A stretch of 64,000 nt of DNA from Thermodesulfovibrio yellowstonii DSM 11347 (GTDB lineage Bacteria; Nitrospirota; Thermodesulfovibrionia; Thermodesulfovibrionales; Thermodesulfovibrionaceae): assembly GCF_000020985.1 (NCBI RefSeq), contig NC_011296.1, forward strand, positions 1,416,001 to 1,480,000, written 5' to 3'. A program made the translations under genes and the position numbers. Positions 27,056-34,423 of this stretch are shown one piece after another; the first letter of the stretch is position 1; each line of letters starts with the position of its first letter. The notes beneath the pieces were generated by a model. It did no database searches and was not told the origin of the DNA. It was given only the letters and a program-made list of their open reading frames with translations.

Positions 27056-27907
27056 TTAAATTATATTAAGTGCTGCTTGGGGAATTAATTTTATAATGTC
27101 TGAGATCTGAGTTGAAGGGTCTGGATTGGCAAGTTTACCAGCAATTCTGTTAATTTTTGAAGCAAATACGCATGCTGTCTGTATCTCGTAGCCAGAATCA
27201 ATTAAAGCAGATACAATACCTGTTATGCTGTCTCCTGTGCCTCCAATAGGCTCAAGTGCTTCTATAACAGGCTCTGATACCATATCTACAACTTCCCCTT
27301 TTTTTACGATGTAATCTGTTTTCCCTTTAACAAGAAGATATTCTGGCGCATTTTCATACTCATAAGCTCGCCTAATAAGTTCTTCAACTCTGCTTTCATC
27401 TTGGAGAAGAAAACCTCTTGTATAAAAAGGATGAGGTGCTTCTTCATCAGCCAGAAAAGCAAGCTCTCCGGTGTCTGGTGTAAAAAGGTTAAAATATTTA
27501 GCGTTTCCGCTCATCTTTGCTGCATACATAAAACCTGCATCAGCAATTAAAAAAGGATGTTTATGCAATTCCTCAATAACAAGCAAAATTTTATTACACC
27601 AGTCAGCATCAGGCATAAGATAGTGAAAGGTAAGTGTTTGAAATTCTCTTTGTCTTATATCCTTGATAAAATATTCATAAAGCTTCTTACTGCCTGTTCC
27701 TTTTCCGATGTCTCCTGCGAGATATACATAGGGATAATCTTTTTTTAAAACTTCAAAGATTTTACATGCAGAAGCAACAAGAGCTGGTGTTCCTCTTTGG
27801 ACTGGGACTCTTTTGCTATCAATAAATAAAAAATCGTTTTCTAACTTGGCTTTTCCGAAAGTAATGGGAAAATCTTCCTCTGGCACAGTTCCTATGATTG
27901 CAAGCAT
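27056..27907 (-). CDS. Ribokinase-fold protein of unknown substrate (NAD(P)HX dehydratase/sugar kinase-like)
   Basis: 283 residues. The C-terminal motif GGTGDSITGIVSALI resembles the anion-hole/catalytic Asp motif of ribokinase-like enzymes (GxGDxxxG), preceded by LLVKGKTDYIVKKGEVV as in YjeF-C/NnrD and PfkB proteins. FNLFTPDTGELAFLADEEAP matches the T-P-x-x-x-E segment of that fold. The normal N-terminal sugar site is not recognisable. The gene overlaps the DUF3343 gene by 16 bases and ends the minus-strand selenium-linked cluster, so a role in selenium or sulfur metabolism is possible but only inferred. Confidence 0.6.
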   Translation of the reverse strand: MLAIIGTVPEEDFPITFGKAKLENDFLFIDSKRVPVQRGTPALVASACKIFEVLKKDYPYVYLAGDIGKGTGSKKLYEYFIKDIRQREFQTLTFHYLMPDADWCNKILLVIEELHKHPFLIADAGFMYAAKMSGNAKYFNLFTPDTGELAFLADEEAPHPFYTRGFLLQDESRVEELIRRAYEYENAPEYLLVKGKTDYIVKKGEVVDMVSEPVIEALEPIGGTGDSITGIVSALIDSGYEIQTACVFASKINRIAGKLANPDPSTQISDIIKLIPQAALNII

Positions 27908-28434
27908 AATTCTTTTATTTTATCATAGGCTAACTGAAGAGCATATCCACATAAAGTATGCCCAATTTCATTGGGCTCTGGAACTTCATAAATATTTTTA
28001 CCAACTAACATGGCAGCTAAATAAGGAACATCCGGGCAACCACCACCTGAAACATTGACAATTGTCAAGCTGCCTTTATGAACAGTTATTTTCATATTAG
28101 CTGCCCTGACCATTATAAATCTTCCAAAATCTTTTATATGAAAAAGGTCAACAGGCTTTAAATTACCATCGTTTAAAGGCATATAATCAATCGGTGACAA
28201 TTCGTAATTTTTAAGAAGCTTTAAAATTCCTACGGTCTCAACGATTGGAAAATCTATTGCAAGGTCACAGCCTTTTCTTACATGTGGAGGTGGTCCAACA
28301 ACTTTAATCTCATATCCATGCTTTTTAAGAATGTTTTCTGCTCTTATTACCTCAGAGGTATTTTCAAAAATGAGAATTCCTCTATTATAGGAAAGTTTTT
28401 TATTATTTCTGAATAATTTTTTAAAAAATTTCAT
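27892..28434 (-). CDS. DUF3343 (putative Se/S carrier-like) protein
   Basis: 180 residues. The N-terminal part (about 18-90) matches the DUF3343/Se_S_carrier type: GILIFENTSEVIRAENILKK, then PPPHVRKGCDLAIDFP with the conserved Cys. The C-terminal part is an extension with VSGGGCPDVPYLAAMLVG and a second Cys in LCGYALQLAYD. DUF3343 proteins often occur with YedE and TusA/YedF genes in selenium-using bacteria. It lies about 40 bases after the TusA-like gene on the same strand. The function as a Se/S carrier is a family hypothesis. Confidence 0.75.
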   Translation of the reverse strand: MKFFKKLFRNNKKLSYNRGILIFENTSEVIRAENILKKHGYEIKVVGPPPHVRKGCDLAIDFPIVETVGILKLLKNYELSPIDYMPLNDGNLKPVDLFHIKDFGRFIMVRAANMKITVHKGSLTIVNVSGGGCPDVPYLAAMLVGKNIYEVPEPNEIGHTLCGYALQLAYDKIKELCLQS

Positions 28435-28475
28435 CTAATCCTGCCTGAATATTTGTCATTATAAATTGTTTCTTT

Positions 28476-28694
28476 TTAATCTTTGCTTATTTTAACCCTA
28501 TACCATGCCTCTTCCTGTTGAACTTCAACGATTTGCCAGCCCATTGATTGAGCTGCACGGGATACATTTTCTCTTGAAGTATCGGTATCAACAAGAATCT
28601 CTATCTCACCCTTACCAAGTTTTTTTATTGTTTCAAGAGTTAAAAGCACAGGCTCAGGACATGAAAGTCCTCTTGCGTCAACAATTTCAGCCAT
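28476..28694 (-). CDS. TusA/SirA-family sulfur (or selenium) carrier protein
   Basis: 72 residues. The family motif DARGLSCPEPVLLTL (about 5-19) has the persulfide-forming Cys in the CPxP context. The rest fits the small alpha-beta TusA fold. It lies two bases downstream of the YedE-type transporter gene, with GGAGGT before its ATG. Together with DUF3343 and YedE it fits the selenium-associated YedE-YedF type arrangement rather than tRNA thiolation, for which partner genes would be needed. Confidence 0.85.
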   Translation of the reverse strand: MAEIVDARGLSCPEPVLLTLETIKKLGKGEIEILVDTDTSRENVSRAAQSMGWQIVEVQQEEAWYRVKISKD

Positions 28695-28696
28695 TT

Positions 28697-29788
28697 TTAC
28701 CTCCTTCTCATTGTTAATCCAATAATTACACAGACTATTAACCCTATTATTGTTGCCACTGCCCCATTTGGACCTATACCAGCTGGTGAGCTCGCAAGAC
28801 CAAAGTTATGAGCAATTCCTGCACCGACAATCATACCAGATGCAAAAACAGCAGCATCTGCATCACCTTCTCCAGACATAAAAAGCTGTCTACCAGGACA
28901 ACCACCCGCCAGAGTGAATGCTAAACCCGCAAGTGTCATACCCAGAAAATTCCAGAGCTGCATTGTATGAGCAATTGGTTGTTTCTCAAATCCTGGATGA
29001 AATTGACCAAGTATTAGATTTGTTATCAATGCTGCTATAAAAAATGCTGCCACACCTGAAAATAAATGCCCTTGTTTGAAAAGTAAAAGGTCTCTGAAAG
29101 CTCCCATAGTGCAAAATCTGCTCCTTTGAGCAAGAACACCTATTAATAAACCCACAACAAGTGATATAAATAAAGGTGCATGCTGAGCCCCTGGTCCTTT
29201 TAAACTATAAAAAAGTAACATTCCCCTTCCTTCTCCTTCTGGTTGAGGATCAATAAATAGAAGAATAAGAAATCCGAGCATCAAAAGAGGAAAGGCAAGC
29301 CCTGCTGCCTTTGACGGAGCTGTTTGAGTTCTTCCCAGAGAGTAACCAGCCTTTAAAAATCTTGTTCCAACCCATATACCAAAAATAAGACCGAGCAAAC
29401 CAAAGATTGCATTTCCGTCTCCACCAGCAAGCCTAAGGAGAGTTCTCCATGGACAGCCCAAAAACACTAACGCACCTATCATTGCAAAAACACCTAAAAT
29501 GAATCTTATAAATGGTGCAGAGCCTCCGCGAGGTCTATATTCCTTAAATGCCAATGCAGACAAAAATGCTCCGAGCACAAACCCGAGTATTTCAGGTCTC
29601 ATATACTGAACAACTGCTGCTCTGTGAAGTCCCAATGAGCCAGCAATATCCCTTTCCATACAGGCAACACATATACCCATATTAGGTGGATTTCCAAGAT
29701 TCTGAAGCACAGGAGCAAGAACCCCAATAACTAAACCAACAAAAATAATACCTCCCCGCGTGGCAAGAAAATTTTTAAAACCCTCCAT
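28697..29788 (-). CDS. YedE-type selenium/sulfur membrane transporter
   Basis: 363 residues with about nine or ten membrane helices in two YeeE/YedE halves. Conserved cysteine loops are visible: GICVACMERDIAGSLGLHRA near 33-52, LGCPWRTLLRLAGGDGNA near 110-127, RFCTMGAFRDLLLF near 225-238 and GGCPGRQLFMSGEGDADA near 298-315. These are characteristic of the YedE family proposed to move selenium or thiosulfate-like species. It heads the minus-strand cluster with TusA-like and DUF3343 genes. A probable selenoprotein gene lies about 450 bases upstream on the opposite strand, which favours selenium over sulfur. Confidence 0.85.
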   Translation of the reverse strand: MEGFKNFLATRGGIIFVGLVIGVLAPVLQNLGNPPNMGICVACMERDIAGSLGLHRAAVVQYMRPEILGFVLGAFLSALAFKEYRPRGGSAPFIRFILGVFAMIGALVFLGCPWRTLLRLAGGDGNAIFGLLGLIFGIWVGTRFLKAGYSLGRTQTAPSKAAGLAFPLLMLGFLILLFIDPQPEGEGRGMLLFYSLKGPGAQHAPLFISLVVGLLIGVLAQRSRFCTMGAFRDLLLFKQGHLFSGVAAFFIAALITNLILGQFHPGFEKQPIAHTMQLWNFLGMTLAGLAFTLAGGCPGRQLFMSGEGDADAAVFASGMIVGAGIAHNFGLASSPAGIGPNGAVATIIGLIVCVIIGLTMRRR

Positions 29789-29889: not shown

Positions 29890-30171
29890 GCCATTCCAAG
29901 CCTTTTCCCCTGTCATTCCGATAGCCGTTCCTTTTCTGTCATTGCAAACGGAGCATTCCTATCCTGCCATTCCGAGGCTGCGTAGGCAGTAGAGGAATCT
30001 CCTCAGATTTAAAATGAGGAGACCCCTCCTAACGCTCGGGGTGACAGAATAGGACTGTCATCCGAGCCTTTTATCTATCATTCCGAACGAAGTGAGGAAT
30101 CTCCTCCTTTTTTTCTGAAACAGCAAGAGAAATTCCTCGGCACATCACGCCCCCTGAATGACAGAAAGAAA
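29890..30171 (+). repeat. Dispersed intergenic repeat cluster, copy C (inverted modules)
   Basis: Between the yedE-type gene and the small gene at 30240 lie several modules of the same family as copies A and B, mostly in inverted orientation: CCATTCCGAGG, GAGGAATCTCC, GGAGACCCCTCC and CTCGGGGTGACAGAATA (best unit 29968-30050), then a further unit from 30061 to 30171. No open frame of note runs through it. Confidence 0.75.
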
Positions 30172-30201: not shown

Positions 30202-30229
30202 TTGACAGTTTTTTTTGCTATTCTATAGA
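30202..30229 (+). promoter_or_regulatory. Promoter of the selenoprotein candidate
   Basis: A perfect -35 TTGACA (30202-30207) is followed after 16 bases by TATAGA (30224-30229). Transcription would begin near 30236, only a few bases before the ATG at 30240, so the message is nearly leaderless. This supports the small ORF being a real gene rather than a remnant. Confidence 0.65.
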
Positions 30230-30239
30230 ATTTAAAATT

Positions 30240-30431
30240 ATGCGAAAAAAAATTCTGAAAAATGCAAAATGTAAATATTGCAAAAACACAGTTTTAATAT
30301 TTTTTTATTGAAGTAGAGTTGTGCTCTGCTGTAGTGAATGCGGAGCAGAATTCAAAGTGTCTGAATATCTTGAGGATATTGATGAAGAAACATGGGAGAT
30401 TATTTCAAGACGTTCCTGTGACAGAACTTAG
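30240..30431 (+). CDS. Candidate selenoprotein, small dual-CXXC protein with in-frame TGA (Sec24)
   Basis: Read through the TGA at 30309-30311, the frame from ATG 30240 to TAG 30431 gives 63 residues. It has CKYC at 11-14, the TGA at codon 24, then CCSECG (30-35) with a second CxxC at 31-34, an acidic helix-like EYLEDIDEETWEIISRR, and a final Cys60 in SCDRT. Coding character and Cys pattern continue after the TGA. A SECIS-like hairpin lies directly downstream (30316-30353). From memory this matches a family named dual CXXC motif small (seleno)protein, where the TGA position is Cys or Sec; I cannot verify that here. Alternatives are a nonsense mutation or a 23-residue peptide. A selenium transport cluster lies next door. 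Confidence 0.72.
30316..30353 (+). promoter_or_regulatory. Bacterial SECIS-like stem-loop
   Basis: The upper stem pairs TGCTCTGC (30322-30329) with GCGGAGCA (30340-30347), eight pairs with one G-U. The lower stem pairs GAGTT (30316-30320) with AATTC (30349-30353) across a single G-G mismatch. The ten-base apical loop, TGTAGTGAAT, has G as its second base. The loop starts 18 bases after the TGA. Known bacterial SECIS elements have a G in the first two loop bases and a TGA-to-loop distance of about 16-37 bases, so both criteria are met. Confidence 0.7.
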
Positions 30432-32887: not shown

Positions 32888-34423
32888 TTAACGAAGAAGC
32901 TGAAGCACAAGCTGAGGTAAGGCATTTGCCTGAGCAAGCATTGCAACACCTGCCTGCATTCTAATCTGCATTGTGGTAAATGTGCTCATTTCAGCTGCGA
33001 AGTCTGTGTTACGAATGACGTTTTCAGCTTCCTTTGTATTGTCATAAGATGTTTTTTGTCCATCATATATAGCCTGTAGGTTATTGATTACAGAACCAAT
33101 CTGAGTCCTGACCTTATCAACCTTCTTTATTGCAGTATTAACAATATCTATAGCCAACTCCGCTCCTGAATTATCTGTAACATCAATACTATAAAGATTA
33201 TAGAAATTTCCTGAACCAGTAGCTGCTACCCCGAGTCCTGCTGATGCAGTGCTTATTCCTGTAAAATCATAGTTATATGAGTCTGTTCCTGTTACTATAA
33301 GATTGCCGACTTTAACAGCGGAACCTGTATTACCAACTGCTACAGTACCTGTCGCACCCTGGAGAAACTGTGCCATATTAACAGCCACAGCACCTGTAGC
33401 AGATGCAATTTCAAGTCCTATAGTTTCACCTTCTGTTGTAAGAGCAAGCTTATTCCCTGAATTTGTTGCTGTTATATTGAGAGATTTTGTGGATGCCTGT
33501 GTATTAATCTGAGAAACTAACTCATCAAGAGTAAGGGTTTCTCCTGCAGCCACTGTAATAGAAATAGCACTTGCAGAAGCTGTAGATGAACCAACATAAA
33601 ATTTTATAGTAACCGCAGCTGTCCCTGAACTATTGTCAATATTACTCCATTCAGTAGTTGCTGTGCTGGTATTTACAGCTCTTGCTGAAATACCAACTCC
33701 CTGTAATGTAGCGTTATTGTTTATTGCATCTGCAATTGATTTTGCATCAACTGCTCCTGTTACACTTGAAAGCGCGCTATAATTCTTTAAATTAACTCCA
33801 GCAACTGTCACTGTATCAGAAGCAGAATTATACTGCCAGTCTCCAGCAATCAATGATGTATAGGCTGATGTAGCACTTGATGTAACCTGTCCACTTCCCT
33901 GAACAACAAATGCACCAATATTTGTTGCTTTTACATTGCCTATACTTGTTGTAATTGTCTGGTCTGCTCTTGCTCCGTAATGAATAACCTTGTTTGCGAA
34001 TGTTCCATCAAGAAGCTTAATTCCATTATATTCTGTGTCTGTCCCAAGTTTTTGAATTGCATCAACAAGATTTGCAATATCTCTCTGTAAAGCTGCACGG
34101 GCATTCGGGTCATTGATGTCATTTGCTGCAGATTGAGCTTTTGTGTAGATTGTCTGAAGTTTGTCAAAAATCTGTCCTACATTTGTTTCTGCAATCTGGA
34201 GAGCACTGATACCGGTCTGAATATTACGATTACCTTGGTCAAGTGCTGCTCCAACTGTTGCAAGCTGGTCTGCAATAAAAAGACCTGCTGCATCGTCAGC
34301 TGCTGAAAGAATTCTCTGCCCTGTTGAAATTCTTAAAAGGGACTTGTTCATTGCCTTCTCGTTTCTGAGAAGGGCTGTGTGTGTTGTTGCGGCTTCTGCG
34401 TTAAAATTAACTCTTAATGCCAT
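32888..34423 (-). CDS. Flagellin
   Basis: 511 residues. The N-terminal D0/D1 region (1-140) contains NKSLLRISTGQRILSAADDAAGLFIADQL and QTGISALQIAETNVGQIFDKLQ. The C-terminal D1/D0 region (about 425-511) contains KVDKVRTQIGSVINNLQAI and ends MLAQANALPQLVLQLLR. The middle (about 170-420) is a Ser/Thr/Ala-rich variable domain exposed on the filament surface. The ATG at 34421-34423 has GGAGGT eight bases upstream. A sigma-28-type promoter and a roughly 100-base structured leader precede it. It is the only flagellin in the window. Confidence 0.95.
   Translation of the reverse strand: MALRVNFNAEAATTHTALLRNEKAMNKSLLRISTGQRILSAADDAAGLFIADQLATVGAALDQGNRNIQTGISALQIAETNVGQIFDKLQTIYTKAQSAANDINDPNARAALQRDIANLVDAIQKLGTDTEYNGIKLLDGTFANKVIHYGARADQTITTSIGNVKATNIGAFVVQGSGQVTSSATSAYTSLIAGDWQYNSASDTVTVAGVNLKNYSALSSVTGAVDAKSIADAINNNATLQGVGISARAVNTSTATTEWSNIDNSSGTAAVTIKFYVGSSTASASAISITVAAGETLTLDELVSQINTQASTKSLNITATNSGNKLALTTEGETIGLEIASATGAVAVNMAQFLQGATGTVAVGNTGSAVKVGNLIVTGTDSYNYDFTGISTASAGLGVAATGSGNFYNLYSIDVTDNSGAELAIDIVNTAIKKVDKVRTQIGSVINNLQAIYDGQKTSYDNTKEAENVIRNTDFAAEMSTFTTMQIRMQAGVAMLAQANALPQLVLQLLR

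Follow-up and report, generated by a model that had tools for sequence, protein, structure and literature searches.

The window analysed here is a 64-kb stretch of the Thermodesulfovibrio yellowstonii DSM 11347 genome, to which all coordinates below refer unless a locus is named. Near its middle, on the plus strand, a short coding sequence runs from an ATG at 30240 to a TAG stop codon (30429-30431) and contains one in-frame TGA, at codon 24 (30309..30311). Read through this TGA, the frame specifies a product of 63 residues, MRKKILKNAKCKYCKNTVLIFFYUSRVVLCCSECGAEFKVSEYLEDIDEETWEIISRRSCDRT, in which U denotes the predicted selenocysteine (Sec24). This residue is flanked by two CxxC pairs, C11 and C14 (codons at 30270..30281) and C31 and C34 (30330..30341), and a further cysteine, C60 (30417..30419), follows towards the end. 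Upstream of the gene, a -35-like hexamer TTGACA (30202..30207) and a -10-like hexamer TATAGA (30224..30229) are separated by a 16-nt spacer, and a SECIS hairpin (30316..30353) starts 4 nt after the TGA. The ATG frame, the TGA at codon 24, the hairpin and the promoter-like hexamers had all been proposed in a sequence-only reading and were recovered at exactly these positions; the second CxxC likewise stood, but the cysteine that had been called terminal is residue 60 of 63.

The -10-like box lies only 10 nt from the ATG, and a Shine-Dalgarno sequence is absent; the predicted transcription start suggests that the transcript of the selenoprotein gene is leaderless or nearly so. In two relatives (loci L012 and L015), whose upstream regions resemble that of the selenoprotein gene, TTGACA is placed identically upstream of the start, and several other species carry GGAGG-type sites.

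With respect to the neighborhood, the gene faces the fliS end of a flagellar cluster on one side and on the other adjoins a minus-strand cluster (27056-29788) of a Carb_kinase-like gene, a PF11823 Se/S carrier protein, TusA and YedE. The YedE, which is divergent from the selenoprotein gene, matches the selenium-associated family TIGR04112 (493 bits), and YedE and DUF3343 have been tied to selenium metabolism (PMC5322559). This arrangement would favor a carrier of selenium or sulfur connected with the neighboring YedE, TusA and Se/S-carrier genes, a role that we nevertheless regard as distinctly unlikely for the protein, given that, among four further members of the genus compared over wider regions, G001 alone has the YedE side. 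The neighborhood, being mostly not conserved in the genus, was set aside as a functional link. The window also harbors an intergenic repeat of the GAGGAATCTCCTC type, present in five copies with at most one mismatch (29992-30004, 30094-30106, 24019, 24129 and 25963; 0.07 expected).

The combination of an in-frame TGA and a hairpin called for evidence from beyond the window. When TGA triplets on both strands of the window were scanned for an in-frame ATG 20 or more codons before them and an open frame of 39 or more codons after them, 17 out of 2643 qualified, and three of these 17 also satisfied a loose bacterial-SECIS rule. The gene at 30240 is by far the most stable of the three (-20 kcal/mol); the other two are weaker, the second-best being at 32988 on the minus strand, in another frame of a flagellin-like coding region. 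With three matches in one window, the pattern alone may arise by chance; chance is excluded because relatives conserve the gene.

Conservation of the gene and of codon 24

According to translated searches, every one of the 16 genus genomes sampled carries the gene, at 68-98% identity. Fifteen of these have one in-frame TGA, whereas in the sixteenth (G007, locus L017) codon 24 is TGT (Cys) and the hairpin is no longer present. The presence of TGA in 15 independent genomes excludes a read error, that is, a TGG, TGT or TGC at 30309. Within the genus, pN/pS is 0.18 before the TGA and 0.18 after it, purifying selection thus being as strong on one side as on the other.

Beyond the genus, a profile search of Nitrospirota identified the gene in 150 of 396 genomes, representing 88 of 170 genera. 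In 85 members that were examined base by base, the CxxC-9-U-6-CxxC spacing is identical throughout, as imposed by the search pattern, which at codon 24 also admitted Ser, Gly, Arg and Thr. Of these members, 78 have TGA at codon 24, five have TGT and two TGC, and none has TAA or TAG there, in contrast to the terminal stops of the same 85 genes, which are TAA in 43, TGA in 27 and TAG in 15; among these sequences, then, the ordinary stop drifts and codon 24 does not. Downstream of codon 24 the frame is uninterrupted in every one of the 85, while the other two frames are stopped in 72 and 76 of them, respectively. The first CxxC is invariant (85/85), and position 60 is Cys in 73 members, Ser in 10 and Ala in two. 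The Cys forms come from seven genomes of four families (f1, f6, f9 and f10), each of which also includes Sec forms, so that the switch between Sec and Cys probably occurred more than once. Viral contigs were searched as well and yielded no relative.

These data bear directly on two alternatives to selenocysteine insertion. TGA is a normal terminator in this genetic code, and tools without Sec support would end the gene there, leaving a 23-residue peptide followed by a pseudogene or by accidental similarity. Such an ordinary stop is very hard to reconcile with a downstream frame that is kept at the protein level in 85 homologues under a pN/pS of 0.18, or with a codon that is exchanged for Cys in seven genomes but never for TAA or TAG, and we assign it a negligible probability. 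Alternatively, the part downstream of the TGA could be a separate protein produced by re-initiation, for which a GTG a few codons 3′ of the TGA might serve. The residue encoded by this GTG (28), however, varies strongly among family members, which leaves no conserved start, the CxxC pairs on both sides of the TGA are invariant and fixed in their spacing, and the Cys forms read straight through; re-initiation appears just as improbable. Tested for coding past the TGA, the homologues retain it and exchange Sec for Cys at codon 24, in agreement with a selenoprotein gene.

One genome (G003) encodes a second, shorter relative at L018:1501-1623 (C1:1672641), MEDFLKCKYCGGKAIITGTUAKGKVRCLTCGIERPVKEYEEEIEELKKR, with a TGA in the equivalent position. 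This paralogue adjoins the end of an Mrp-like ATPase gene, scores 35.8 bits against the NCBIfam model NF041197, below the cut-off, and has a hairpin no better than those of shuffled sequences.

The SECIS hairpin and the selenocysteine machinery

The hairpin consists of 13 pairs (5 + 8) with a single 1x1 mismatch and is closed by a 10-nt apical loop, TGTAGTGAAT (30330-30339), with G as its second base, at a distance of 18 nt from the TGA; the codons of the second CxxC lie within this loop and the stem. Pairing, mismatch, loop distance and loop G are all as the sequence-only reading had described them. The folding energy of -20 kcal/mol compares with -9.8 +/- 2.4 for shuffled sequences (z -4.3). 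The bSECIS consensus model is likewise a short intragenic stem-loop, with G followed by G or U opening an apical loop of 3-9 nt, a spacing of 16-37 nt and an energy of at most -7.5 (PMC13188914). The hairpin agrees with this model in spacing, loop G, stem length and energy, and differs from it in the Thermodesulfovibrio loop, UGUANUGARU, which at 10 nt falls just outside the allowed range. An Rfam scan of the 64-kb window returned no SECIS match and one tRNA only.

Unlike Thermodesulfovibrio, most other Nitrospirota members have GCUGCAUGGAAUGCGGC-like hairpins. These are formed by the second-CxxC codons, as a rule GCUGC AUG GAA UGC GGC, and carry GG at the loop. The 63 Sec sequences from outside the genus display compensatory changes in the hairpin: positions 25 and 29 are paired in 41 (shuffled mean 32.8) and positions 19 and 35 in 58 (shuffled mean 51.8), counts that were reached in none of 2000 shuffles, which ignore sequence kinship. 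Codon usage in the same sequences points in the same direction. Threonine at residue 32 is always encoded by ACG (14/14, versus 26/116 elsewhere in these genes), so that the loop G is kept, and at the two Cys codons of the hairpin TGC is used in 62/63 and 59/63, versus 44/63 and 39/63 for the two Cys codons that precede the TGA. In the Cys forms, the corresponding two codons are TGC in only 3/7 each. Within Thermodesulfovibrio, with UGU-ANU-GAR-UGC as the loop codons, Ser, Ile, Thr and Asn replace one another via the middle base only. Judging from these patterns, the codon constraints in the hairpin act on the RNA and not on the protein. Minimum-energy folding of 52 nt across the phylum separated Sec forms (mean z -1.67) from Cys forms (-1.14) poorly, and the codon-level constraint and the pair counts were therefore used instead.

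The search for selA, selB, selC and selD that the sequence-only reading had called for detected in the genome selA (513 bits), selB (386 bits), selD (377 bits) and a tRNA-Sec with the anticodon TCA. The selD gene (L138, G000:C1:348575-349492) itself contains one in-frame TGA, and the SelD of T. yellowstonii is probably a selenoprotein in its own right. Some kilobases before the tRNA-Sec, a ribonucleotide-reductase-like gene (L027:1353-5510) appears, by eye in translation, to carry two intein-like insertions. Across the phylum, selB scored above the cut-off in 20 of 21 Sec genomes, in three of seven Cys genomes and in all 10 genomes without the gene; the difference between Cys and Sec genomes corresponds to a one-sided hypergeometric p of ~0.008, computed by hand and with some genomes incomplete. 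The association has exceptions in both directions: one Sec genome (G220, 96% complete) has no detected selB, and three Cys-form genomes retain it.

Codes in which UGA is read as Trp, Arg or Gly occur in other bacteria, and suppression of this kind could in principle account for read-through at codon 24. No sense codon other than TGT and TGC, however, occurs at this position, the genome encodes tRNA-Sec together with selA, selB and selD, and TGA also functions as a genuine terminator in the family (27/85); we therefore consider the odds of suppression to be minimal. Conservation, machinery and hairpin together support the proposal of a 63-residue Sec protein hidden by an internal TGA, and we hold it to be almost certain that the gene at 30240-30431 encodes a selenoprotein. 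According to the machinery and cis signals evident in the sequence, the ribosome would read the UGA at codon 24 as Sec by means of SelB, Sec-tRNA and the SECIS hairpin.

Family, predicted fold and comparison with known proteins

The protein is, again with near certainty, a member of NF041197, which it matches with 49.1 bits (cut-off 40) over positions 1-52 of the 53-position profile; a genomic six-frame search with the same model gave 42.3 bits with one TGA, and all 80 aligned Nitrospirota members are matched. The family is hence not new but already catalogued, as "dual CXXC motif small (seleno)protein". It corresponds to OS_HP3 of a 2026 review, first predicted in a gutless-worm symbiont, and the hypothetical protein DW from deep-Sep has been placed under the same model (PMC13188914); OS_HP3 and DW are among the predicted, not experimentally verified, families (PMC13188914; PMC12013277; PMC9312934). 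No Pfam family scored above its cut-off for the 63-residue protein, and among the papers searched none names both T. yellowstonii and a selenoprotein.

An AlphaFold2 model built from 80 sequences (mean pLDDT 83, pTM 0.60) contains two strands, residues 17-22 and 27-31, joined by a turn that holds U24; the CxxC pairs lie at the opposite end, and two C-terminal helices follow. On the strength of this model a zinc-ribbon-like fold is probable, and the two invariant CxxC pairs are most likely the ligands of a single zinc, arranged as in a zinc ribbon, as motif and model both suggest. Given that two full CxxC pairs supply four metal ligands, Sec24 more likely remains a free selenol on the hairpin tip, and we favor, with some reserve, a redox-active or nucleophilic residue over a metal ligand. 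The sequence-only reading had instead cast Sec as a third metal or redox ligand, and the two CxxC pairs that flank it in the sequence do invite the idea of a structural or metal-sensing selenolate; because both pairs are intact and the model places Sec24 in a turn at the far end of the hairpin, this alternative seems unlikely. As an exposed selenol at the tip, away from the metal, Sec24 might be paired with the C-terminal Cys60, perhaps its partner and a candidate resolving residue. Taken as a whole, the explanation of the locus by an NF041197 selenoprotein with a predicted zinc ribbon and an exposed Sec24 appears very likely.

A possible partner is suggested by gene neighborhoods in several lineages, in which a gene of the CxxCxxCC family PF03692, putatively zinc- or iron-chelating, lies directly downstream on the same strand with a median gap of 6 nt (11-13 loci); such genes number just 1-4 per genome in the 20 genomes searched. 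In 17 loci another Cys-rich gene, with a CPxCxxVCC motif and no Pfam match, lies upstream in divergent orientation; one further locus has it downstream. Neither gene is adjacent in T. yellowstonii, and elsewhere the neighbors are flagellar, housekeeping or CxxCxxCC genes, housekeeping genes being common. The CxxCxxCC link is thus a lead and not a result, and joint action of the two proteins is a tentative, somewhat doubtful, proposition. More speculative still is the view of the protein as a selenium version of a zinc ribbon, with a reactive Sec at the hairpin tip whose target or partner is a metal-binding protein of the CxxCxxCC type; if true, this would be selenoprotein chemistry outside both the thioredoxin fold and the metal-cofactor enzymes.

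The present analysis indicates that a little-known selenoprotein family is widespread in Nitrospirota (150/396 sampled genomes, almost all with Sec) and that an unaided reading of raw sequence is able to find a true hidden selenoprotein. New here are this spread, the Sec-to-Cys switches associated with selB loss, the CxxCxxCC-family gene that recurs immediately downstream in a number of lineages, and the predicted zinc-ribbon-like layout, in which Sec sits at the hairpin tip and is probably not a metal ligand. The natural Cys forms, several of them in selB-less genomes, and the recurrent neighbor gene offer handles on function.

In structural comparison, the predicted succession of CxxC knuckle, beta-hairpin and CxxC knuckle resembles, in weak matches, the zinc ribbons of RPB9, RPC10, TFIIS, PriA, the ATCase regulatory chain and topoisomerase I (no significant Foldseek match, the best E being 0.32; VIA Z values of no more than 6). 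In contrast to the protein described here, these ribbons have no Sec; they show no significant sequence match, and the similarity is too weak for a claim of kinship. A profile search of PDB sequences returned short Cys-containing zinc-finger stretches only. With NF041197 (CxxC_Se_CxxC), on the other hand, the likeness extends over the whole length: two CxxC pairs, set at a fixed distance, enclose a Sec or Cys in proteins of ~55-63 residues. Against this common background, Thermodesulfovibrio adds a 10-residue basic N-terminal stretch, has FFYU before the site where others commonly have xFGU, usually shows CCxEC, with one more Cys ahead of the second CxxC, and possesses a distinct 10-nt SECIS loop.
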